NCBI RefSeq assembly: GCF_027579695.1
Contig: NC_083577.1
Location: 69,573,616 to 69,637,615 of the forward strand
DNA from: Neoarius graeffei
Lineage: Eukaryota > Chordata > Actinopteri > Siluriformes > Ariidae
Direction of reading: 5' to 3'
DNA length: 64,000 bases
Both the position numbers and the translations under genes were made by a program. Under the pieces are notes generated by a model. That model had not been told where the DNA came from. It ran no database searches and saw only the letters and a program-made list of their open reading frames with translations. Below are positions 5,101-56,135 of this stretch, in pieces. Position 1 is the stretch's first letter, and each line of letters begins with the position of its first letter.

Positions 5101-8100
5101 GTGGGTTTCCTCCGGGTGCTCCGGTTTCCCCCACAGTCCAAAAACATGCAGGTTAGGTTAACTGGTGACTCTAAATTGACCGTAGGTGTGAATGTGAGTG
5201 TGAATGGTTGTCTGTGTGTCAGCCCTGTGATGACCTGGCGACTTGTCCAGGGTGTACCCCGCCTTTCACCCATAGTCAGCTGGGATAGGCTCCAGCTTGC
5301 CTGCGACCCTGTAGAACAGGATAAAGCGGCTACAGATAATGAGATGAGATGAGATATTGCTACCTCAAAATGCACAACCAAATTTTCTGTGCATTATCAG
5401 TGACCGGTACTGGGTGGCACTGTACTGTCCGTTTGTGCAAATTGTCTTTTTTTTTGCATGGTCATTGATATTTACACTTCACTGTTGTTTGTGTAGTTGT
5501 CGGCAATGTTTGCACTCAATGTTGTTACATGTAGATTTGTAGTCCTACGATGTTTTACTGTATGTAGCACCATGGTCCTGAAGAAATGCCATTTTAACTG
5601 TGTACTGTACCAAATGTATATGGTTGAAATGACAATAAAAAGCCTTGGCCTTGACCTTCTACGGAATTGTGGTTTTTAATTAAAAAAAAAAAAAAAAAAA
5701 AAAAAAACACCCCAGCACACACCCAAAACATCCATCAATTATCTGTAGCCACTTATCCTGTGCAGGGTCGCGGGCAAGCTGAAGCCTATCCCAGCTGACT
5801 ATGGGCGAGAGGCAGGGTACACCCTGGACAAGTTGCCAGATCATCGCAGGGTTGACACAAATCATGTTTCATATTTTAGATTCTTCAAAGTAGCCACCGT
5901 TTACCTTGATGATGCTTTGTACACTATTATCATTATCTTAACCAGCTTCATGAGCCTGGAATGCTTTTCAATTAACAGGTGTGCCTCATCAAAAATTTAG
6001 TGCAATTTCTTGCCTTTTTAATGCGTTTGAGATCAAATAATAAATACAAAGTAAACAGCCCTATTCCACAACTATAGTAAGCCATATTATGTCAAGAACA
6101 GCTCAACTAAGTACACTACCGTTCAAAAGTTTGGGGTCACTTTGAAATGTCCTTATTTTTTAAAGAAAAGCACTGTTCTTTTCAATGAAGATCACTTTAA
6201 ACTAATCAGAAATACACTCTATCCATTGCTAATGTGGTAAATGACTATTCTAGCTGCAAATGTCTGGTGCAATATCTCCATAGGTGTATAGAGGCCCATT
6301 TCCAGCAACTCTCACTCCAGTGTTCTAATGGTACAATGTGTTTGCTCATTGCCTCAGAAGGCTAATGGATGATTAGAAAACCCTTGTACAATCATGTTAG
6401 CACAGCTGAAAACAGTTGAGCTTTTTAGAGAAGCTATAAAACTGACCTTCCTTTGAGCAGATTGAGTTTCTGGAGCATCACATTTGTGGGGTCGATTAAA
6501 TGCTCAAAATGGCCAGAAAAATGTCTTGACTATATTTTCTATTCATTTTACAACTTATGGTGGTAAATAAAAGTGTGACTTTTCACGGAAAACACAAAAT
6601 TGTCTGGGTGACCCCAAACTTTTGAACAGTACTGTAAAGAAAAACATCCAATCTTAATTAACAAAAAAAAAAAAAAACCAACTGAATTAGATGATGTGTC
6701 CAAACTTTTGTCTTGTACCGTATACGATAAAGTCGACTTCTTCTTCAAAAGGATATTATAGTTTGTATGAAGACCCTTTTCAGTGCAGTTAAGAATGAAT
6801 ATCAGGGTCTAAAAAAGGTAGCAGGACTTTGCAATTACTGCTGAATCCCAATTTTGCAAGTTTAATCATGCAAACTGTGCAGTTAAATAATAATAATAAA
6901 GCAACTGCTACTGTGTGTCTTTACATAAGGGTTAGAAAAATAGCAGTGGACAAAAAAAAAAAAAAGTGTATGCACCGTCACAACAGGCATTATGGTCACT
7001 TGGTCCTCTGGCAGTCATAAAAAAACAGAGGCTGGAAATTTCAGCATGACACTAGGTCACAGGTAGTCTGGTTAACACCAGACCATATCATAAGTGCAAT
7101 ATTGTCTTTTCAGATCGGAACAATTGTGCAAAGCAGCATGGGATTTCCCAGGCTAGGTCACAGGTTGAGTCAAAGATACACAAGGAAGTGTATGATGCCA
7201 CACACACTTACACAATGATGGTTTTAATGACCATGTCCTGAATCTTCTCCCAGATAAGAGTGGTGTTAATCCCTCTGGAGTCCAAATACTGCCATAACGC
7301 CTTCAGTGCCCTGTAGGCAACAAAGCTCATTTAAACAGAACATTTTCGTTGTGACCATCACTGTTAAGAGCTAATGTCAAACTGGTATTTGCACACAAAG
7401 TCTGAAAATAAAAACACCAGTCTGACTTAAAATTCTCTACCATTTATGACCCTGGCAGGCCTTGTCATCACTGTTGGTCTGATATTCAGAGTTCTTCTTG
7501 TTTACACTGTAGTTTGTCAAGTGCATGAATTTGTTGCCAAGGCTTTTCATTGAAGAGGAATACCTGCATTGAAAACATTAAAAAGCAATAACAAAATCAG
7601 ATAAAACATTGGATATGCTACAAAGCAGGATATTTATTAACTGAAAAATGTATGGTGCTTTCTGCTGGACATAATTTTCTTTAATTGGCTCACTTGCAGC
7701 TTGCAAAGCGGACGAGTCCATCGTTGAAGATGTAAACACGGAGTGGATCATAAGAGGTCACGTACACATAGATACGCAGATCAAATTTATTCCCACTAAT
7801 GAGGTAGGGCTTATGAAGGTATCTGTGAAAATCAGAGAGGTGACAAACTTGGTGTAGTGCAAATCTACAGAACTCAAAAAAACAAAATAGATTTTTTTTT
7901 TAAATAATGATTCACATTCTGAACCCATTTTTCAACCCCAAAAGCCCTCCAAGTACAGTCTAAAATTCAAAAGGACAAAGTTTAAAACCTGTAATATTCC
8001 TTCTTATTTTTGTAACCCCAAATCAGACAAAGTTGGGACGGTATGTTGAAATTAAAACTGAAAACAATGATTTGTAAATAATCTTTGACCTGTATTGCAC

Positions 8101-11100
8101 TCAAAAGAATGCAGCAGCACATTATTTGATGTTTTACCTCATGAATTTAAATTTTTTTTAAATTAAAAAAAAAAAAAAAGGGAGGACGGTAAAGCATTTA
8201 CCACTTTATAATGTTGCCATTCCTTCTCACAACACTGAGATGATGTTTATGGACTGAAAACACCAAGTGATGAAGTGTTTCAGGTGTTATTTTGTCCCAT
8301 TACTCCTGCACACAGGTCTTAAGATGTGCAACAGTATGGGGTCATCATTGTTGCATATCAAATTTCGCCACACATTCTCTGTTGGGCACGGAGGGAATAG
8401 GCGCCCTCTTCTTCCGCAGCCATGCCTTTGTAACGTGCAGAATGTGGTTTTGCACTGCCTTGCTGAAATATCCCTGGAAAAGATGTCGTCTTGAAGGTAG
8501 TGTATGCTGCTCCAAAATCTCAATGTACTTTTCCGCATTAATGCTGCCATCACAGGAGTGTAAGTTACCTTAGCCGAGGGCCATGACAGACCCTGGCTTT
8601 TGGACTTGTGGCTGGTAACAGTCAGGATGGTCCTTTTCTTCTCTGGTCTGAATCACGTGGCGTCCATTTCTTCAAAAAAAGGCCTGGAATACTGATTCAT
8701 CAGACCACGATTCATGGTTCCACAGTGCAATGGTCCCAGATGCCTCTGATGCCAGAGAAATCAATGGCGCTTCTGGACACAGTTAGCATAAGGCTTCCTT
8801 TTTGCACAGTAAAGTTTTAACTGGCATGACCAACACAGAGTAGCACATAATTGTGAAGTGAAATGAAAATGATAAATGGTCTTCAAATTTTTAAACAAAT
8901 AAAAATCTGAAAAATGTAATGTGCATTAGTATTCAGCCCCTCTGCGTCAATACCTTGTAGAGCCACCTTTTGCTGCAATTACAGCTGCAAGTCTTTTGTG
9001 GTATGTCTCTACCAGCTTTGCACATCTAGACACTGAAATGTTTGCCCATTCTTCTTTGCAAAATAGCTCAAGCTCAGCCAGATTGGATGGAGAGCGTCTG
9101 TGAACAGCAAGTCTTGCCACAGATGCTCAATGGGATTTAGGTCTGGACTTTGACTGGGCCATTCTAACACATGAATATTCTTTGATCTAAACCATTCCAT
9201 TGTAGCTCTGGCTGTATTTTTAGGGTCATTGTCTTGCTGGAAGGTGAATCTCCTTCCCAGTCTCAAATCTTTTGCAGCCTCCAACAGGTTTTCTTCCAGG
9301 ATTGCCCTGTATTTAGCTCCATCCCTCTTCCCATCAACTCTGACCAGCTTCCCTGTCCCTGCTGAAGAAAAGCATCACCATAGCATGATGCTGCCACCAC
9401 CATGTTTCACAGTGGGGATGGTGTGTGCAGGGTGATGAGCAGTGTTAGTTTTCCGCCACACACAGCGCTTTGCATTTAGGCCAAAAAGTTCAACTTTGGT
9501 CTCATCTGACCAAAGCACCTTCTTCCACATGTTTGCTGTGTCCCCTACATGGCTTCTTATGCCTGTCTTTCAACAACGGCTTTCTTCTTGCCACTCTTCC
9601 AAAAAGGCCAGATTTGTGGAGTGTACGACTTATAGTTGTCCTGTGCACAGATTCTCCCACCTGAGCTGTGGATTTCTGCAGCTCCTCCAGAGTGATCATG
9701 GGCCTCTTGGCTGCTTCTCTGACCAGTGCTCTCCTTGCTCGCTCTGTCAATTTAGGTGGACGGCCATGTCTTGGTAGGTTTGCAGTTGTGCCATATTTTT
9801 CCATTTTTGAATGATGGATTGAACAGTGCTTCTTGAGATGTTCAGAGCTTGGGATATTTTTTTTTTAATCACCTAACCCTAATTTAAACTTCTCCAGAAC
9901 TTTATCCCTGACCTGTCTGGTGAGTTCTTTGGTCTTCATGATGCTGTTTGTTCTTCAGTGTTCTCTAACTCTGAGGCCTTCACAGAACAAGTGTATTTAT
10001 GCTGAGAGTAAATTACACACAGTAGGACTCTATTAACTAATTAGATGACTTCTGAAGGCAATTGATTGCACTGGATTGTATTTAGAGGTATCAGAGGACA
10101 GGGGGCTGAATACTAATGCACACCACATTTTTCAGATTTTTATTTGTTTAAAATTTTGAAGACCATTTATCATTTTCGTTTCACTTCACAATTATGTGCT
10201 ACTCTGTGTTGGTCTATCACATAAATCTCAATAAAAAAGCGTTTAAGTTCGTGGTTGTACGGTGGAAAAATGTGAAAAAGTTCAAGGGGTATGAATACTT
10301 TTGCAAGGCACTGTAACTCTGTATTGTAGAGTTTAACAAAGGTTTACCAAAGTAACCCTGAGCCCATGTGGTTATATCAGCTGTAGATGAATGACGGTTC
10401 TTGACGCAATACCATCTGAAGGATCAGAGATCCCGGGTGTTCAGCTTAGGCTTGTGCCCTTGGCCCTTTATGCAACAAAACTCCTCAAGATTCCTTGAAT
10501 CGTTTCATGATATTATGCACAGTAGAGGGTGAAATATCAATCCCTTCCCATCTTTCTTTGAGGGACATGTTAAATGTTTCTAAATATTTACATTTTTCCC
10601 CCTCACGCACTTGGTTATAAACTAAAGATCCATGGCCCATCTTCGCTCCTCAAAGACTAGACCTTTTCTGGATACTAATTTTGTACCAAATCATGATTAC
10701 AATCACCTGCTGACATCATCTGTTTCAAATCACATCATTGTTTAATTGCTTTACCTCATTACTAGCCCTAAATTGCCCACATCCCAACTTTTTTTGGACT
10801 GTGTTGCAGGCCTGAAACGCAGAAATGGATGTATATTAACAAAATGAAGAGAAGTTGAACAGGCAAAACATTAAATATTTTTTGTTCAGCGTCTGCAATG
10901 AAATACAAGTCAAAGTAAATTTCGGTCTCTCTTTTTTTTTTTTTTTTAAATGTGCATTTTCCATACCGTCTCAATTTTTTCTGATTTAAAGGTTGTAGAT
11001 TAAATCTAAGCTAAAAAGTAAAAGAATAAAGGTCAAGCGCTTGACGAAAATCAATATAGAGAAGCTAATGAATGAAGAATACAGAGGAAGATATGCTATG

Positions 11101-36759: not shown

Positions 36760-37164
36760 GGTCCCACGTGCACGGCTTTCCATGAAAGGGGACAGGGCCT
36801 TTAGTGTCTATGCCCCACGTCTCTGGAATAGTCTACCACAGAAACTGAGATCTGCATCTGTGGTGTCAGTGTTTAAAACCTCTCTCAAAACACACCTGTT
36901 TAGACTTGCCTTCAATGACCTTTGAAATTGTGGGATTCTGGGATGGAGACCCTATTACTGTATGTATTGTTGTATTGCTGTGCTGTTGTTTCTTTCCTGT
37001 CTTGTTTGCTCTGTCTCATCTGTCAGTACTGGTACCTGTATATTTCTGTATATTTTGTATTTATTTTTTTTAATTTATTTTATTCTATTTTATTTTTCTT
37101 ACTATTTTACTGTGAAGCACTTTGGTTTTAAATGTGCTATACAAATAAATTACTTACTTACTTA
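36760..37164 (+). mobile_element. L2-like LINE 3' end in unit A
   Basis: It encodes RAFSVYAPRLWNSLPQKLR and FKTSLKTHLFRLAF, the standard C-terminus of L2/CR1-type fish LINEs, then a UTR ending CTATACAAATAAATTACTTA with a TTAC tail. It is flanked by 128-base direct repeats (36632-36759 and 37165-37292). Confidence 0.85.
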
Positions 37165-37760
37165 CTAATACATACATGAACTGTCCCTCTGAGTTACATG
37201 TCAATCCTGAGATCGAGGTGCTGACCTCTTCTGCTCCTCGGACCCGCCTGATCCATCCTGGTGCCCTGTGTCTGGTTGGAGTCTCATCATATCGCTCCTG
37301 TAGAGGACGGCCCCATGAGGACAGTCGAAAGTCGCACTTGGAAGATGCTCTGGACGCTTACAGTAATGCTTTTATGGCTGAGGATTACAGTTGACTTGCT
37401 AACTTTGGGACTGCGGTTGTCATGAACAGTTTTGCACTCGAGTTTCCATTAATGAAGAGTTTTAACATCAGCGAAACTGACTTCATGTTAAAACTGTTAA
37501 TGTTATAGTCATGTTGTCTGTTGTGGTCCAGGTGAGGATGGGTTCCCTTTTGGGTCTGGTTCCTCTCGAGGTTTCTTCCTCGTGTCGTCTGAGGGAGTTT
37601 TTCCTTGCCACCGTTGCCACGGGCTTGCTCACTGGGGATAGATTAGGGATAAAATTGTCTCATGTCTTGGGTCATTCAGATTCTATAAAGCTGCTTTGGG
37701 ACAATGTCTATTGTTAAAAGCGCGATACAAACAAACTTGACATATATTTTATTGCCCTTT

Positions 37761-37819
<59 letters not shown>
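37761..37819. repeat. GATA microsatellite between units A and B
   Basis: About 14 GATA repeats flanked by inverted arms ATTTTATTGCCCTT and AAGGGCAATAAAAT. Confidence 0.95.
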
Positions 37820-38253
37820 GGGCAATAAAATTGTATAAAAAGACAATAAAATAAATAAACTTCACTATCAGGGTATGGTGCATAGTCTAGACATCATGTC
37901 AAATAGCTTATTTATAAAAGCAAAATACTGTTAAATTCTCAAATCTGACTGGTCACAAGGTGTTGATTCATTTTTAAGAACAGCATCAAGGCAAATCACA
38001 GGTTTATATTAATACTCTCATACATAAACACTCATTCACAGGGACTTGTATAATGGACGGGCCACATAATCAAAAGCTAATAATAACCTCATTAAACACA
38101 TGCTGTTTTATATAGATTATATAGCCTAATACATACATGAACTGTCCCTCTGAGTTACATGTCAATCCTGGGATCGAGGTGCTGACCTCTTCTGCTCCTC
38201 GGACCCGCCTGATCCATCCTGGTGCCCTGTGTCTGGTTGGAGTCTCATCATAT

Positions 38254-38658
38254 GGTCCCACGTGCACGGCTTTCCATGAAAGGGGACAGGGCCTTTAGTG
38301 TCTATGCCCCACGTCTCTGGAATAGTCTACCACAGAAACTGAGATCTGCATCTGTGGTGTCAGTGTTTAAAACCTCTCTCAAAACACACCTGTTTAGACT
38401 TGCCTTCAATGACCTTTGAAATTGTGGGATTCTGGGATGGAGACCCTATTACTGTATGTATTGTTGTATTGCTGTGCTGTTGTTTCTTTCCTGTCTTGTT
38501 TGCTCTGTCTCATCTGTCAGTACTGGTACCTGTATATTTCTGTATATTTTGTATTTATTTTTTTTAATTTATTTTATTCTATTTTATTTTTCTTACTATT
38601 TTACTGTGAAGCACTTTGGTTTTAAATGTGCTATACAAATAAATTACTTACTTACTTA
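38254..38658 (+). mobile_element. L2-like LINE 3' end in unit B
   Basis: The same insertion as in unit A, with the same 128-base flanking repeats at 38126 and 38659. It was copied with the unit, not independently inserted. Confidence 0.85.
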
Positions 38659-39254
38659 CTAATACATACATGAACTGTCCCTCTGAGTTACATGTCAATC
38701 CTGAGATCGAGGTGCTGACCTCTTCTGCTCCTCGGACCCGCCTGATCCATCCTGGTGCCCTGTGTCTGGTTGGAGTCTCATCATATCGCTCCTGTAGAGG
38801 ACGGCCCCATGAGGACAGTCGAAAGTCGCACTTGGAAGATGCTCTGGACGCTTACAGTAATGCTTTTATGGCTGAGGATTACAGTTGACTTGCTAACTTT
38901 GGGACTGCGGTTGTCATGAACAGTTTTGCACTCGAGTTTCCATTAATGAAGAGTTTTAACATCAGCGAAACTGACTTCATGTTAAAACTGTTAATGTTAT
39001 AGTCATGTTGTCTGTTGTGGTCCAGGTGAGGATGGGTTCCCTTTTGGGTCTGGTTCCTCTCGAGGTTTCTTCCTCGTGTCGTCTGAGGGAGTTTTTCCTT
39101 GCCACCGTTGCCACGGGCTTGCTCACTGGGGATAGATTAGGGATAAAATTGTCTCATGTCTTGGGTCATTCAGATTCTATAAAGCTGCTTTGGGACAATG
39201 TCTATTGTTAAAAGCGCGATACAAACAAACTTGACATATATTTTATTGCCCTTT

Positions 39255-39256
<2 letters not shown>

Positions 39257-39337
<81 letters not shown>

Positions 39338-39338
39338 G
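39257..39338. repeat. GATA microsatellite between units B and C
   Basis: About 20 GATA repeats with the same inverted flanks. It is about 24 bases longer than the A/B tract, which accounts for the longer B unit. Confidence 0.95.
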
Positions 39339-39952
39339 GGCAATAAAATTGTATAAAAAGACAATAAAATAAATAAACTTCACTATCAGGGTATGGTGCA
39401 TAGTCTAGACATCATGTCAAATAGCTTATTTATAAAAGCAAAATACTGTTAAATTCTCAAATCTGACTGGTCAAAAGGTGTTGATTCACTTTTAAGAACA
39501 GCATCAAGGCAAATCACAGGTTTATATTAAGACTCTCATACGTAAACACTCATTCACAGGGACTTGTATAATGGACGGGCCATATAATCAAAAGCTAATA
39601 ATAACCTCATTAAACACATGCTGTTTTATATAGATTATATAGCCTAATACATACATGAACTGTCCCTCTGAGTTACATGTCAATCCTGGGATCGAGGTGC
39701 TGACCTCTTCTGCTCCTCAGACCCGCCTGATCCATCCTGGTGCCCTGTGTCTGGTTGGAGTCTCATCACATCACTCCTGTAGAGGACGGCCCCATGAGGA
39801 CAGTCGAAAGTCGCACTTGGAAGACGCTCTGGACTCTTACAGTAATGCTTTTATGGCTGAGGACTACAGTTGACTTGCTAACTTTGGGACTGCAGTTGTC
39901 ATTAACAGTTTTGCACTCGAGTTTCCATTAATGAAGAGTTTTAACATCAGCG

Positions 39953-40301
39953 ATGACCGACTAGTGGCCTAGTGGTAGCTTGTCCGCCTCTCGATCGGGA
40001 GATCGTGAGTTCTATTCACGGTCGGGTCATACGAAAGACCATCATAAAAATGGTACCTACTGCCATCTGGCAAGGCACGCTGCAATACAGATGTGCATGG
40101 GGAGTTAAACTCTCGTGGTTACCAGAGGACTAGCTCCCCACTGTAACCCTAGCTATGTAATAGGCGAGAGGCCGAGGGCTATGGAAACGGAGATCGGCGC
40201 CGCCCGATGCGCCACATACAGGTTGGGCCTGGTTAGTACTTGAGTGGGAGACTGCCTAGGAATACCAGGTACTGTAAGGTGTGGGAAGGACTACTTTTTA
40301 C
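39953..40301 (+). mobile_element. Composite SINE: tRNA-like head, 5S rRNA-like tail
   Basis: The insertion is flanked by a 13-base repeat, TTTAACATCAGCG (39940-39952 and 40302-40314), and is absent from the other units. The head has a tRNA-like GGCCTAGTGGTAGCTTGTCC and a B-box-like GTGAGTTCTATTCACG. Near its end, 40222-40278 (GGGCCTGGTTAGTACTTG, GGGAGAC, AATACCAGGT) closely follows the 3' half of vertebrate 5S rRNA. It is not a functional tRNA or 5S gene. Confidence 0.85.
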
Positions 40302-40612
40302 TTTAACATCAGCGAAACTGACTTCATGTTAAAACTGTTAATGTTATAGTCATGTTGTCTGTTGTGGTCCAGGTGAGGATTGGTTCCCTTTTGGGTCTGG
40401 TTCCTCTCGAGGTTTCTTCCTCGTGTCGTCTGAGGGAGTTTTTCCTTGCCACCGTTGCCACGGGCTTGCTCACTGCGGATAGATTAGGGATAAAATTGTC
40501 TCATGTCTTGGGTCATTCAGATTCTATAAAGCTGCTTTGGGACAATGTCTATTGTTAAAAGCGCGATACAAACAAACTTGACTTGACATATATTTTATTG
40601 CCCTTTTATTTC

Positions 40613-40613
<1 letters not shown>

Positions 40614-40685
<72 letters not shown>
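40614..40685. repeat. GATA microsatellite between units C and D
   Basis: About 17 GATA repeats with the same right flank. The left flank has an extra TTTC. Confidence 0.95.
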
Positions 40686-40975
40686 GGGCAATAAAATTGT
40701 ATAAAAAGACAATAAAATATATAAACTTCACTATCAGGGTATGGTGCATAGTCTAGACATCATGTCAAATAGCTTATTTATAAAACCAAAATACTGTTAA
40801 ATTCTCAAATCTGACTGGTCACAAGGTGTTGATTCATTTTTAAGAACAGCATCAAGGCAAATCACAGGTTTATATTAATACTCTCATACATAAACACTCA
40901 TTCACAGGGACTTGTATAATGGATGGGCCATATAATCAAAAGCTAATAATAACCTCATTAAACACATGCTGTTTT

Positions 40976-41898
40976 ATATAGATTAGATTAGATTAGATTA
41001 GATTAGATTAGATTAGATTAGATTAGATAACTTTATTGGTACCCAAAGGTAGATTTGGTGTGCAGCCAAGTGATCTCCACTCATACAAAACATTTAAAAT
41101 AAAGGACACACTTAACATACACACATTTGAAATATTACAGAAATGTTTAAAAACAGTAAACATTAGACAGTACCAAAGTAGCGCATCCTAGTGACATAGT
41201 GTCACACTGTGTGCAAAACAAAACAGTGATATACAGCCATGATAGATTGATGAATATGTAATAAAATGAGACTGATAAGATCCTTAAATATATAAACAAA
41301 TTAAAAATTAATTATAAAACAAAACAAACAAAAAATTGTGCTATTACAGCCTATGTTTAGAAGTTATATTATTAATCTGTCTAATAGCAGAGGGGACAAA
41401 ACTTCCTCTGAAACGCTTTGTCTTGCAGACAGGTAGGTTGTATCTGTAACCAGATGGAAGGAGCTGAAATTCCTTATACAGTGGGTGAGAGCTATCTTCC
41501 AAGATGGAACCAGCTATCCTCTGCAACTGTCTGGTGTACAGGGTCTCAGGACCAAGTTGTGGCTCTCCAATCAGCCCGCCAGACCACTTAATTATTTGAA
41601 AAAGGGAATTCTTGTTTTTAAGAGACAGGTTGTTGAACCAGCACGCCAAGCAGAAAGATTAGATAGATTCAATAAAAGCATGATAAAAGAGGGTAAGCAA
41701 GGTTCAATCAATGTGAAAGTAAGACAGTTTCCTCAGACAGTGCAGATGCTGGTTGGCCTTTTTAAAAACAGCTTCACAGTTTACCTCAAATGTGAGCTTG
41801 TTGTCAATAATGGTGCCAAGGTATTTGTACTTGTCTACACTCTCGACTTTCTGACCATTAATTTCTGTGGCCATCTGGATCTGGTTGTGCTTATAGAT
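40976..41898 (-). mobile_element. 5'-truncated LINE in unit D
   Basis: On the minus strand it encodes INGQKVESVDKYKYLGTIID, HCLRKLSYFHID, SGGLIGEPQLG and RFRGSFVPSAIRQIN, the C-terminal part of a fish non-LTR element. The 3' end carries ATAAAGTTATC and a TAATC repeat tail (40976-41027). A frameshift lies between 41650 and 41704. Confidence 0.82.
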
Positions 41899-47008: not shown

Positions 47009-48613
47009 CAACCCCGATTCCAAAAAAGTTGGGACAAAGTACAAATTGTAAATAAAAACGGAATGCAATAATTTACAAATCTCAAAAACTGATATTGTAT
47101 TCACAATAGAACATAGACAACATATCAAATGTCGAAAGTGAGACATTTTGAAATTTCATGCCAAATATTGGCTCATTTGAAATTTCATGACAGCAACACA
47201 TCTCAAAAAAGTTGGGACAGGGGCAATAAGAGGCTGGAAAAGTTAAAGGTACCAAAAAGGAACAGCTGGAGGACCAAATTGCAACTCATTAGGTCAATTG
47301 GCAATAGGTCATTAACATGACTGGGTATAAAAAGAGCATCTTGGAGTGGCAGCGGCTCTCAGAAGTAAAGATGGGAAGAGGATCACCAATCCCCCTAATT
47401 CTGCACCGACAAATAGTGGAGCAATATCAGAAAGGAGTTCGACAGTGTAAAATTGCAAAGAGTTTGAACATATAATCATCTACAGTGCACAATATCATCA
47501 AAAGATTCAGAGAATCTGGAAGAATCTCTGTGCGTAAGGGTCAAGGCCGGAAAACCATACTGGGTGCCCGTGATCTTCGGGCCCTTAGACGGCACTGCAT
47601 CACATACAGGCATGCTTCTGTATTGGAAATCACAAAATGGGCTCAGGAATATTTCCAGAGAACATTATCTGTGAACACAATTCACCGTGCCATCCGCCGT
47701 TGCCAGCTAAAACTCTATAGTTCAAAGAAGAAGCCGTATCTAAACATGATCCAGAAGCGCAGACGTCTTCTCTGGGCCAAGGCTCATTTAAAATGGACTG
47801 TGGCAAAGTGGAAAACTGTTCTGTGGTCAGACGAATCAAAATTTGAAGTTCTTTATGGAAATCAGGGACACCGTGTCATTCGGACTAAAGAGGAGAAGGA
47901 CGACCCAAGTTGTTATCAGCGCTCAGTTCAGAAGCCTGCATCTCTGATGGTATGGGGTTGCATTAGTGCGTGTGGCATGGGCAGCTTACACATCTGGAAA
48001 GACTCCATCAATGCTGAAAGGTATATCCAGGTTCTAGAGCAACATATGCTCCCATCCAGACGACGTCTCTTTCAGGGAAGACCTTGCATTTTCCAACATG
48101 ACAATGCCAAACCACATACTGCATCAATTACAGCATCATGGCTGCGTAGAAGAAGGGTCCGGGTACTGAACTGGCCAGCCTGCAGTCCAGATCTTTCACC
48201 CATAGAAAACATTTGGCGCATCATAAAACGGAAGATACGACAAAAAAGACCTAAGACAGTTGAGCAACTAGAATCCTACATTAGACAAGAATGGGTTAAC
48301 ATTCCTATCCCTAAACTTGAGCAACTTGTCTCCTCAGTCCCCAGACATTTACAGACTGTTGTAAAGAGAAAAGGGGATGTCTCACAGTGGTAAACATGGC
48401 CTTGTCCCAACTTTTTTGAGATGTGTTGTTGTCATGAAATTTAAAATCACCTAATTTTTCTCTTTAAATGATATATTTTCTCAGTTTAAACATTTGATAT
48501 GTCATCTATGTTCTATTCTGAATAAAATATGGAATTTTGAAACTTCCACATCATTGCATTCCGTTTTTATTTACAATTTGTACTTTGTCTCAACTTTTTT
48601 GGAATCGGGGTTG
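47009..48613 (+). mobile_element. Tc1-like transposon, copy 1
   Basis: A 1605-base element flanked by TA. The inverted ends begin CAACCCCGATTCCAAAAAAG and continue for about 100 bases. It is nearly identical to the copy at 51936. The host sequence around it (46740-47008 and 48614-48830) has a short frame MAAFSEFMLKFNLIDES broken by the insertion. Confidence 0.93.
47371..48393 (+). pseudogene. Tc1 transposase, one nonsense codon
   Basis: 341 codons including stop, start [16 protein letters not shown] single in-frame TAA at 47473-47475 lies at the start of the helix-turn-helix segment [16 protein letters not shown]. The catalytic parts are intact: [12 protein letters not shown] (first Asp), [11 protein letters not shown] (second Asp) and [16 protein letters not shown] (Glu). 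Otherwise the frame is open to the end. Confidence 0.9.
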
Positions 48614-50046: not shown

Positions 50047-51661
50047 TACACAGTGGTGCTTGAAAGTTTATGAACCCTTTAGAATTTTCTATATTTCTGC
50101 ATAAATATGACCTAAAACAACATCAGATTTTCACACAAGTCCTAAAAGTAGATAAAGAGAACCCAGTTAAACAAATGAGACAAATATATTATACCTGGTC
50201 ATTTATTTATTGAGGTAAATGATCCAATATTACATATCTGTGAGTGGCAAAGGTATGTGAACCTCTAGGATTAGCAGTTAATTTGAAGGTGAAATTAGAG
50301 TCCGGTGTTTTCAATCAGTGGGATGACAATCAGGTGTGAGTGGGCACCCTGTTTTATTTAAAGAACAGGGATCTATCAAAGTCTGAGCTTCACAGCACGT
50401 TTGTGGAAGTGTATCATGGCACGAACAAAGGAGATTTCTGAGGACCTCAGAAAAAGCGTTGTTGATGCTCATCAGGCTGGAAAAGGTTACAAAACCATCT
50501 CTAAAGAGTTTGGACTCCACCAATCCACACTCAGACAGATTGTGTACAAATGGAGGAAATTCAAGACCATCGTTACCCTCCCCAGGAGTGGTCGACCACC
50601 AAAGATCACTCCAAGAGCAAGGCGTGTAAGAGTCGGCAAAGTCACAAAGGACCCCAGGGTAACTTCTAAGCAACTGAAGGCCTCTCTCACATTGGCTAAT
50701 GTTAATGTTCATGAGTCCACCATCAGGAGAACACTGAACAACAGTGGTGTGCATGGCAGGGTTGCAAGGAGAAAGCCACTGCTCTCCAAAAAGAACATTG
50801 CTGCTCATCTGCAGTTTGCTAAAGATCATCTGGACAAGCCAGAAGGCTATTGGAAAAATGTTTGGTGGATGGATGAGACCAAAATAGAACTTTTTGGTTT
50901 AAATGAGAAGCGTTATGTTTGGAGAAAGGAAAACACTGCATTCCAGCATAAGAACCGTATCCCATCTGTGAAACATGGTGGTGGTAGTATCATGGTTTGG
51001 CCCTGTTTTGCTGCATCTGGGCCAGGACGGCTTGCCATCATTGATGGAGCAATGAATTCTGAATTATACCAGCGAATTCTAAATGAAAATGTCAGGACAT
51101 CTGTCCATGAACTGAATCTCAAGAGAAGGTGATTCATGCACCAAGACAACGAACCTAAGCACACAAGTCGTTCTACCAAAGAATGGTTAAAGAAGGGTAA
51201 AGTTAATGTTTTGGAATGGCCAAGTCAAAGTCCTGACCTTAATCCAATCAAAATGTTGTGGAAGGACCTGAAGTGAGCAGTTCATGTGAGGAAACCCACC
51301 AACATCCCAGAGTTGAAGCTGCTCTGTACGGAGGAATGGGCTAAAATTCCTCCAAGCCAATTTGCAGGACTGATCAACAGTTACCGCAAACGTTTAGTTG
51401 CAGTTATTGCTGCACAAGGAGATCACACCAGATACTGAAAGCAAAGGTTCACATACTTTTGCCCCTCACAGATATGTAATATTGGATCATTTTCCTCAAT
51501 AAATAAATGACCAAGTATAATATTTTTGTCTCATTTGTTTAACTGGGTTCTCTTTATCTATTTTTAGGACTTGTGTGAAAATCTGATGATGTTTTAGGTC
51601 ATATTTACGCAGGAATATAGAAAATTCTAAATGGTTCACAAACTTTCAAGCATCACTGTAT
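50047..51661 (+). mobile_element. Second Tc1-like transposon, inside the LINE
   Basis: Long inverted termini of about 220 bases start CAGTGGTGCTTGAAAG and contain AATTTTCTATATTTCTGC. It is inserted in the 3' untranslated part of the LINE. Confidence 0.9.
50416..51438 (+). pseudogene. Tc1 transposase with two TGA codons
   Basis: 341 codons, start MARTKEISEDLRKSVVDAHQ. Motifs: [42 protein letters not shown] (first Asp), [13 protein letters not shown] (second Asp) and [16 protein letters not shown], where the usual Glu is Lys. Both stops (51130, 51274) are TGA with no frameshift, so decay is by point mutation. Confidence 0.9.
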
Positions 51662-51935: not shown

Positions 51936-53537
51936 CAACCCCGATTCCAAAAAAGTTGGGACAAAGTACAAATTGTAAATAAAAACGGAATGCAATAATT
52001 TACAAATCTCAAAAACTGATATTGTATTCACAATAGAACATAGACAACATATGAAATGTCAAAAGTGAGACATTTTGAAATTTCATGCCAAATATTGTCT
52101 TATTTGAAATTTCATGACAGCAACACATCTCAAAAAATTTGGGACAGGGGCAATAAGAGGCTGGAAAAGTTAAAGGTACAAAAAAGGAACAGCTCGAGGA
52201 CCAAATTGCAACTCATTAGGTCAATTGGCAATAGGTCATTAACATGACTGGGTATAAAAAGAGCATCTTGGAGTGGCAGCAGCTCTCAGAAGTAAAGATG
52301 GGAAGAGGATCACCAATCCCCCTAATTCTGCGCCGACAAATAGTGGAGCAATATCACAAAGGAGTTCAACAGTGTAAAATTGCAAAAAGTTTGAACATAT
52401 TATGCACTGTAGATGATGATATCATCAAAAGATTCAGAGAATCTGGAAGAATCTCTGTGCGTAAGGGTCAAAGCCAGAAAACCATACTGGGTGCCCGTGA
52501 TCTTCGGGCCCTTAGTCGGCACTGCATCACATACAGGCATGCTTCTGTATTGGAAATCACAAAATGGGCTCAGGAATATTTCCAGAGAACATTATCTGTG
52601 AACACAATTCACCGTGCCATCCGCCGTTGCCAGCTAAAACTCTATAGTTCAAAGAAGAAGCCGTATCTAAACATGATCCAGAAGTGCAGACATCTTCTCT
52701 GGGCCAAGGCTCATTTAAAATGGACTGTGGCAAAGTGGAAAACTGTTCTGTGGTCAGACGAATCAAAATTTGAAGTTCTTTATGGAAATCAGGGACGCCG
52801 TGTCATTCGGACTAAAGAGGAGAAGGATGACCCAAGTTGTTATCAGCGCTCAGTTCAGAAGCCTGCATCTCTGATGGTATGGGGTTGCATTAGTGCATGT
52901 GGCATGGGCAGCTTACACATCTGGAAAGACACCATCAATGCTGAAAGGTATATCCAGGTTCTAGAGCAACATATGCTCCCATGCAGACAACGTCTCTTTC
53001 AGGGAAGACCTTGCATTTTCCAACATGACAATGCCAAACCACATACTGCACCAATTACAGCATCATGGCTGCGTAGAAGAAGGGTCCGGGTACTGAACTG
53101 GCCAGCCTGCAGTCCAGATATTTCACCCATAGAAAACATTTGGCGCATCATAAAACGGAAGATACGACAAAAAAGACCGAAGACAGTTGAGCAACTAGAA
53201 TCCTACATTAGACAAGAATGGGTTAACATTCCTATCCCTAAACTTGAGCAACTTGTCTCCTCAGTCCCCAGACGTTTACAGACTGTTGTAAAGAGAAAAG
53301 GGGATGTCTCACAGTGGTAAACATGGCCTTGTCCCAACTTTTTTGAGATGTGTTGTCATGAAATTTAAAATCACCTAATTTTTCTCTTTAAATGATACAT
53401 TTTCTCAGTTTAAACATTTGATATGCCATCTATGTTCTATTCTGAATAAAATATGGAATTTTGAAACTTCCACATCATTGCATTCTGTTTTTATTTACAA
53501 TTTGTACTTTGTCCCAACTTTTTTGGAATCGGGGTTG
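51936..53537 (+). mobile_element. Tc1-like transposon, copy 2, inside the LINE
   Basis: The same family as 47009, flanked by TA, with complete inverted ends. It differs from copy 1 by scattered substitutions, a 3-base difference after TGTGTTGT and an 18-base inversion. Confidence 0.93.
52298..53320 (+). CDS. Tc1 transposase, open frame of 340 residues
   Basis: A cut-and-paste transposase of the Tc1 group that binds the element's inverted ends in the nucleus. Start [20 protein letters not shown]. The N-terminal helix-turn-helix region is altered: [17 protein letters not shown] replaces the family's [16 protein letters not shown] because of an 18-base inversion at 52401-52418. Catalytic residues remain: Asp in [10 protein letters not shown], Asp in [11 protein letters not shown], Glu in [11 protein letters not shown]. 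The frame is full length, but DNA binding is doubtful. It is an element gene, not a host gene; an in-frame ATG exists at 52244. Confidence 0.85.
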
Positions 53538-54476: not shown

Positions 54477-56135
54477 GAGATCTATCAGTCTGGAAAAGGT
54501 TATAAAGCCATTTCTAAAGCCTTGGGACTCCAACGAACCACAGTGAGAGCCATTATCCACAAATGGCGACAACATGGAACAGTGGTGAACCTTCCCAGGA
54601 GTGGCCGGCCGACCAAAATTACCCCAAAAGCGCAGCGACGACTCATCCAAGAGGTCACAAAAGACCCCACAACAACATCCAAAGAACTGCAGGCCTCACT
54701 TGCCTCAGTTAAGGTCAGTGTTCATGACTCCACCATAAGAAAGAGACTAGGCAAAAATGGCCTGCATGGCAGAGTTCCAAGACGAAAACCACTGCTGAGC
54801 AAAAAGAACATAAAGGTTTGTCTCAATTTTGCCAGAAAACATCTTGATGATCCCCAAGACTTTTAGGAAAATACTCTGTGGACTGACGAGACAAAAGTTG
54901 AACTTTTTGGAAGGTGTATGTCCCATTACATCTGGCGTAAAAGTAACACAGCATTTCAGAAAAGGAACATCATACCAACAGTAAACTAGATAGAACGCAA
55001 CGCCAACGGCGTCAATGGGGATGCTTCCGCCTGGTAGACTACACGCCTAATTAAGTTGTGATTTGGGGATGGACATTTGACCTCACAGTAATCTTGACCT
55101 GGTGAAATTACTTGTATCAGCCTTGGAGACATTGTGTTCACAAGGTTTTCGGACAGACATTTGACCTCACAGTGACCTTGACCTTAGCCCTTTTGATCTC
55201 AAAATCTACTCAGTTTATCTTTGTCCCCAAATGCACAAATGGTGAAAGTTTGGTGAAATTCCTTTCATTCGCCTTGGAGATAGTGTTCACAAGGTTTTTG
55301 AACAAACATTTGACCTCACAGTGATCTTGACCTTTGCCCTTTTGATCTCAAAATCTAATCAGTTTATCTGTGTCCCCAAATGCACAAATGGTGAAAGTTT
55401 GGTGAAATTCCTTTCATCTGCCTTGGAGAGATTGTGTTCACAAGGTTTGCGGACAGACATTTGACCTCACAGCGACCTTGACCTTAGACCTTTTGATCTC
55501 AAAATCTAATCAGTTCATGTTTGTCCCAAAGCACACAAATGGTGAAAGTTTGGTGAAATTCCTTTCATTAGCCTTTGAGATATCGCATTCACAAGGTTTC
55601 GGGATGCACACACGGACGGACAACCCGAAAACATAATGCCTCCTGCACCTTACGGTGGCGGAGGCATAAATATGGTGGTGGTAGTGTGATGGTCTGGGGA
55701 TGTTTTACTGCTTCAGGACCTGGAAGACTTGCTGTGGTAAATGGAACCATGAATTCCGCTGTCTACCAAAAACTCCTGAAGGAGAATGTCCGGCCATCTG
55801 TTCGTGACCTCAAGCTGAATCGCACTTGGGTTCTGCAGCAGGACAATGATCCAAAACACACCAGCAAGTCCATCTCTGAATGGATTAAGAAAAACAAAAT
55901 GAAGACTTTGGAGTGGCCTAGTCAAAGTCCTGACCTGAATCCAATTGAGATGCTGTGGCATGACCTTAAAAAGGCGGTTCGTGCTTGAAAACCCTCCAAT
56001 GTGGCTGAATTACAACAATTCTGCAAAGATGAGTGGGCCAAAATTCCTCCACAGCGCAGTAAAAGACTCATTGCCAGTTATCGCAAACGCTTGATTGCAG
56101 TTATTGCTGCTAAGGGTGGCCCAAGCAGTTATTAG
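54477..56135 (+). pseudogene. Transposase of the outer Tc1, split three ways
   Basis: The start MLRSKEIQEQMRNKVI is at 49724-49771. After the LINE it continues EIYQSGKGYKAISKALGLQR, VNLPRSGRPTKITPKAQRRL, HGRVPRRKPLLSKKN and [12 protein letters not shown] (first Asp). The tandem-repeat insertion at 54990 follows. It resumes YGGGSVMVWGCFTASGPGRL, VLQQDNDPKHTSKSI (second Asp) and [16 protein letters not shown] (Glu), ending at a TAG near 56135. At least two nonsense changes (54864, 55986) are also present. Confidence 0.88.
54990..55673. mobile_element. Tandem-repeat element inserted in transposase
   Basis: Non-coding. Units of about 155 bases with GACCTCACAGTGACCTTGAC, AAATGCACAAATGGTGAAAG and TGTTCACAAGGTTT recur about three times between 55070 and 55600. 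The right end has CACGGACGGACAACCCGAAA and a hairpin between GCCTCCTGCACC and GGTGGCGGAGGC. Confidence 0.75.

Follow-up and report, generated by a model that had tools for sequence, protein, structure and literature searches.

An exact 18 bp micro-inversion in the helix-turn-helix region of a Tc1-like transposon of Neoarius graeffei, present at ten loci

Two Tc1 copies in the window

The stretch of Neoarius graeffei DNA analysed here (64,000 nucleotides; hereafter the window) contains two full-length copies of a Tc1 element, both ending in terminal inverted repeats (TIRs) and flanked by TA on both sides (Table 1). The copies differ at 42 of 1,602 aligned positions; 11 of these mismatches fall within a single 18 bp block, and outside the block the copies are unlike at 31 of 1,576 positions. 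The TIRs are 217 bp long, with 83% identity between the two ends of copy 1, and a 15 bp motif (with one base altered in some instances) lies near both ends of each terminal repeat. Sleeping Beauty-like elements, too, have long terminal repeats that carry a repeated motif in an outer and an inner position. The transposase matches the Pfam model DDE_3 with 55 bits, and the catalytic triad of copy 2 consists of Asp154, Asp244 and Glu279, the last two separated by 34 residues (DD34E). Together with the TIRs, the TA target and a paired-type helix-turn-helix (HTH), these sequence features place the element among the Tc1-like DD34E members of Tc1/mariner. The coding differences between the copies comprise 15 nonsynonymous and four synonymous changes, which fits decay without constraint.

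Table 1. Coordinates of the two Tc1 copies, their inverted repeats and the related relic (positions in the window)
Feature	Positions	Strand	Remarks
Relic, 3' part	8014..8829	-	A different Tc1-type element lies between it and the 5' part
Relic, 5' part	10319..10817	-	Outgroup; old relative of ~60% identity; direct block at 10531-10514
Copy 1, full-length Tc1 element	47009..48613	+	Direct block; TIR ends, TA on both sides
Site 3, third inverted repeat	47046..47078	+	8 bp perfect arms; spacer 47054-47070, direct here
Site 2, second inverted repeat	47149..47187	+	10 bp arms TGAAATTTCA; spacer 47159-47177, direct here
Copy 1 transposase frame	47371..48393	+	TAA at codon 35 (47473-47475)
Left inverted-repeat arm, copy 1	47463..47473	+	
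Block of copy 1	47474..47491	+	Direct; 47474 and 47490 deviate from the state of most other copies
Right inverted-repeat arm, copy 1	47492..47502	+	
Copy 2, full-length Tc1 element	51936..53537	+	Inverted block; TIR ends, TA on both sides
Copy 2 transposase frame	52298..53320	+	Open, 340 residues; residues 35-41 are LCTVDDD
Left arm of imperfect inverted repeat, copy 2	52390..52400	+	TTTGAACATAT; 9/11 matched with the right arm
Block of copy 2	52401..52418	+	Inverted; spacer between the two arms; reverse-complemented, identical to the majority block of 36 other copies
Right arm of imperfect inverted repeat, copy 2	52419..52429	+	ATATCATCAAA

The stop codon of the frame is polymorphic in the family: of 55 direct copies, 24 have T at site 48391 and end there with TAA, whereas 31 have G and no stop at this point, so that many frames continue past residue 340. 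Searches of viral_contigs, genome_contigs and plasmids (DNA) and of phages (protein) gave no confirmed relative outside the genome; one stretch of viral_contigs that matched a pattern failed in tblastn and was dismissed. A phmmer search with a 26-residue piece of the HTH returned no match, and the letters of the terminal repeat or of the HTH were not found in published papers. Elsewhere in the window, a second Tc1-type element with internal stops (50416-51435) encodes a good HTH of the Sleeping Beauty type (HTH_SB, 65.3 bits), and a further Tc1-type fragment lies at 55629-56132. Near-identical stretches 1,494 bp apart occur within 37059-41028, with a third TAGA array further on in the tandem-repeat listing, which suggests a recent local tandem duplication.

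The 18 bp block is inverted in copy 2

The block was first noticed in an initial annotation of the window, which interpreted it as an inversion, and its coordinates and letters proved correct on re-checking. The two blocks are identical at seven of 18 positions when compared directly and at 16 of 18 when that of copy 2 is reverse-complemented, which leaves the two differences that the annotation had counted; they lie at 47474 and 47490. Shuffling the copy 2 block 300,000 times gave an inverted identity of at most 15/18, reached once, and any 18 bp window clear of the block shows at most two mismatches between the copies, compared with 11 inside it. The majority block among 36 other copies is CATCATCTACAGTGCATA, and that of copy 2 is its exact reverse complement (18/18); these copies (29 collected with a direct-orientation pattern and seven by similarity to copy 1) inform on the letters of the block and not on the ratio of orientations. 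The exact agreement with this majority shows that the inversion in copy 2 was clean, and both residual differences lie on the side of copy 1. Copy 1 would thus have acquired its own changes in the block or inherited one of them; the C at 47490 is present in seven of the 36 other copies.

It is exceedingly improbable that the block arose by eleven separate substitutions or by an error of assembly. Given the mismatch rate outside the block (31/1,576), 11 independent changes are ~10^19.6 times less likely than an inversion plus two changes, so that separate substitutions are rejected. The inverted form is found at ten loci with different flanks, which makes an assembly slip very unlikely, and this reading too is rejected. 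We regard the micro-inversion in copy 2 as certain; the block agrees with the description of a microinversion as a segment of more than 15 bp that matches its ancestral form in reverse complement.

Polarity of the inversion

An old relative of the element is preserved on the reverse strand of the window as a relic in two parts, separated by a Tc1-type element at about 10318-8830, the 3' end of which we take to be truncated. The relic is ~60% identical to copy 1 (295/490 and 389/631 positions). Its block matches that of copy 2 at 15 of 18 positions when inverted and at seven of 18 when direct, and is therefore in the direct orientation; when the copy 2 block was shuffled 500,000 times, 15 matches against it were never attained. 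At both positions that separate copy 1 from the inverted copy 2, the relic sides with copy 2 (C and T states). Since both the relic and the genomic majority are direct, the inversion occurred in the lineage of copy 2, and copy 2 carries the derived form.

Orientation of the block in the genome

The orientation of the block was surveyed in the 2.34 Gb genome of which the window is a part. A 33-base pattern of the direct form, with up to two mismatches, occurs at 27,113 places genome-wide, and its inverted counterpart, allowing three mismatches, at 110 places (56 + 54). Among the 100 matches listed for the latter, ten are true in-place inversions, with zero to two mismatches; the listed places with three mismatches are direct copies that were read on the opposite strand and have one flank base altered, and they were not counted. 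With 58-mer patterns and up to three mismatches, 25,978 direct places contrast with nine inverted ones, copy 2 among them, so that the direct orientation prevails in the family and that of copy 2 is not the majority form. These nine are among the ten recovered with the shorter pattern, and the tenth carrier has a 3 bp deletion in its flank. Control patterns read backwards gave no place in either orientation search. When 68 copies were scanned for local inversions between 6 and 40 bp long, with the best per copy reported, this block alone was returned, and only in the ten known carriers.

Effect on the DNA-binding helix

The initial annotation had read the inverted block as LCTVDDD in a frame that stays open and had noted a stop at this point in copy 1; both readings hold. 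The HTH fragment of copy 1, with X at the stop, matches PAX with 34.3 bits and HTH_23 with 32.1 bits, both above the cut-off. That of copy 2 scores 30.3 bits with PAX (cut-off 22) and only 15.1 bits with HTH_23, below the cut-off of 24.6. When the block is masked by X, the HTH_23 scores are 16.4 bits for copy 2 and 15.0 bits for copy 1; with 15.1 bits unmasked against 16.4 bits masked, the copy 2 block contributes nothing to the HTH_23 domain. Residues 36, 37, 40 and 41 of copy 1 align with Arg36, Ser37, Gln40 and Thr41 of Sleeping Beauty, which PMC11754664 names as residues of helix H3 and for which its docking model shows interaction with the major groove. The flip thus appears to turn the turn and the first half of the recognition helix H3 into LCTVDDD.

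The transposase of copy 2 would not be expected to bind the terminal repeats properly and is probably disabled, although the passing PAX score of its fragment speaks against a loss of function; the element itself could still be mobilized in trans. The open frame was rejected as evidence of function, because 238 of 324 18-mers in the same phase stay open when inverted and eight of the ten carriers have an early stop (before residue 341). A coding frame can survive an inversion that rewrites a DNA-binding helix, so that the openness of a frame, taken by itself, says little about whether the transposase works.

Inverted repeats at the main site and elsewhere in the element

Two arms that together form an imperfect inverted repeat directly adjoin the block, which is their spacer; the four inner bases are perfect, and nine of 11 are matched overall. 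The palindromic ATAT motifs to which the initial annotation had drawn attention are present on both sides, but they are merely the inner perfect part of these 11-nucleotide arms. Both arm features around an 18 bp spacer are found at one of 1,565 positions in copy 1, one of 1,562 in copy 2, 26 of 63,960 in the window and five of 78,250 shuffled positions. DNA folding of the block region is weak (-1.8 kcal/mol in copy 1 and -5.2 kcal/mol in copy 2), and a ranking of inverted repeats in the family majority contains better ones than that of the main site. At the right junction of copy 2 (52415-52426), the inversion creates a perfect 12 bp palindrome, GATGATATCATC.

Two further inverted repeats of the element were searched (sites 2 and 3; Table 1). 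The spacer of site 2, for which inversion 'many times' had been predicted beforehand and which has longer perfect arms, is inverted at three other loci, fewer than at the main site; this shortfall slightly weakens the case for repeated inversion. Two of these carriers share three variants and may represent one event; the third has no variant in common with the first of this pair, and with the second it shares just one that is common in a subfamily. The spacer of site 3 is inverted at three other loci as well, with one, two and three mismatches, respectively; since this site lies in the terminal repeat, the other terminus is a possible template, and one base favours the local one. A single repeat-free control site in the frame, with none of 11 arm positions matched and a spacer starting at 47623, gave no inverted place. 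Inverted copies are thus found at three of three searched repeat sites and at none of one repeat-free control; sites 2 and 3 have longer arms than the main site but no greater number of inversions. At site 2, nearly the whole spacer between the TGAAATTTCA repeats is missing in nine of 68 aligned copies; such a loss is expected as a deletion between direct repeats, because each arm is itself a palindrome.

Origin of the ten carriers

The ten carriers occupy ten distinct TA sites and are all of full length with TA on both sides; their flanks share only repeat pieces of 121-278 bp. The inverted form is therefore present at more than one locus (at least ten), as the initial annotation had asked, but its corollary that the inverted form had then been transposed does not necessarily follow, because there is no clear excess of shared variants and other repeats of the element flip too. 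The inversion, its polarity, its exactness and its ten sites are observed, as are equivalent inversions at two other repeats. On the reading that we favour, this clean inversion of an 18 bp spacer at an imperfect inverted repeat in the HTH-coding region probably arose repeatedly and independently in different copies.

Variant sharing among the carriers was compared with that in random sets of ten, drawn from 35 direct copies having at least ten non-CpG differences; L018, L019 and L029, which are short or gappy, were omitted here and from the quick tree described below, as was L050 from the sharing comparison. The carriers share 0.62 non-CpG variants per pair, compared with 0.86 in random direct sets (a proportion of 0.90 of the draws equalled or exceeded the observed value), and six rare variants, compared with a mean of 3.75 (0.18 of the draws reached six). 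Median pairwise differences are 44 positions between carriers, 38 between carriers and direct copies and 30 between direct copies. The carrier haplotypes at 47747/47907/48391 are TAT in seven, TAG in two and TGG in one; none of the variants present in every carrier is rare among direct copies. The absence of a clear excess of sharing, together with the flips at two other repeats, means that repeated independent inversion fits the data at least as well as transposition.

A single inversion in a nearly unmutated source copy during a burst, with the ten carriers as its descendants transposed in trans, is a possible but rather unlikely origin. In its favour, the carriers look mobile, to judge by their full length and TA flanks, and all ten have T at 47747 (34 of 55 direct copies) and at 47561 (41 of 58 direct copies). 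They also agree in the majority T state at the flipped counterpart of 47490; since this aligned column lies inside the flipped block in inverted copies, the state was taken from the pattern matches instead. These T states in common agree with an older source from which all carriers descend, or just with a greater age of the carriers. A single clade of inverted copies is not rejected by the AU test (p-AU = 0.654), and the tree in which the ten carriers are held together has a log-likelihood 10.17 higher than that of the quick free tree, on which the orientation label requires nine changes (mean of 9.4 for shuffled labels). The family tree is star-like, with none of 62 inner branches starred, so that private changes shared by descendants of one source need not be expected. 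Taken alone, the tree data do not separate repeated inversion from a single clean source in a burst. A common source is opposed by the lack of a clear excess of shared variants, by the three haplotypes at the subfamily sites and by the similar flips at two other repeats, which show recurrence within the family.

All four allele combinations at 47907 and 48391 occur among the direct copies, and these mixed haplotypes indicate that repeated mutation or gene conversion is present. The same combinations could be cited for a spread of the inverted block to other copies by gene conversion after one inversion, an explanation that we consider very improbable: a rare donor (~10 in 26,000 copies) would have to be favoured, and neighbouring variants would often move along with the block, yet none is common to all carriers and rare elsewhere.

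Proposed mechanism and rate

For repeated independent inversion, strand switching, as suggested in the initial annotation, is a reasonable cause. A DNA end or a nascent strand would change strands and anneal to the opposite arm there, the spacer would then be copied backwards from that strand, and a return at the second arm would leave an exact inversion of the spacer. The setting could be template switching during replication or microhomology-mediated break-induced repair, starting at a fork or at a break. More broadly, and with somewhat less assurance, we favour the view that imperfect short repeats act as recurrent micro-inversion hotspots in this transposon of ~26,000 copies, one spacer having flipped independently about ten times and two others having flipped too.

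If the events are independent, the flip rate of the main site is ~3% of the per-site substitution rate (9/25,978, with a copy age of ~0.01 substitutions per site, a rough figure from 36 copies that were not randomly chosen). The rates given in PMC8755829 translate into a primate genome average of ~2x10^-5 microinversions per substitution, and the rate at this site would, again if the events are independent, be more than a thousandfold higher.

Microinversion cases are usually compared locus by locus, whereas ~26,000 near-identical copies provide both a numerator and a denominator. An inversion rate can be obtained for each of the element's inverted repeats, and such rates could distinguish models requiring long perfect arms from models for which microhomology is enough. 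With independent events, the family would be a ready-made assay of the effects of arm length, mismatch and spacer on that rate.

Comparison with known systems

Among Tc1 transposons, the element resembles those of the Sleeping Beauty-like kind described in PMC11754664 in its 34-residue DDE spacing, its paired-type N-terminal HTH and its TA target. It belongs to another family: the HTH fragment of copy 1, which passes with PAX and HTH_23, scores only 22.5 bits with HTH_SB (cut-off 43).

No title on microinversions in transposons, transposable elements or transposases appeared among the matches listed in the literature. Events of this kind are already known; the unusual feature here is a single transposon family with the same inversion at no fewer than ten loci and similar ones at two other repeats. 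The human-chimpanzee microinversions described in PMC8755829 are 17-33 bp long and mostly exact, and all of those treated there have flanking inverted repeats of 3-75 nucleotides; the 18 bp, the four perfect inner bases and the 9/11 arms seen here are within that range. According to the same source, the origin of microinversions is debated between replication template switching and break repair, and its authors argue that short or imperfect arms are more in keeping with microhomology-mediated break-induced replication than with template switching. The events in PMC8755829 are described as single loci on the human-chimpanzee path, whereas here the same event is seen in ten copies, with ~26,000 uninverted places as the denominator.

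In yeast, inversion of inverted-repeat spacers within genes by template switching is reported in PMC8604942, with SPO75 as an example that flips repeatedly. As in the yeast cases of that report, the spacer of a short inverted repeat flips in coding sequence here, amino acids change and the event recurs; compared with them, the Tc1 element has spacers of 17-19 bp and, at the main site, imperfect arms. The Tc1 case shares features with both the human-chimpanzee and the yeast ones, namely an exact spacer, a location in coding sequence, imperfect arms and recurrence.
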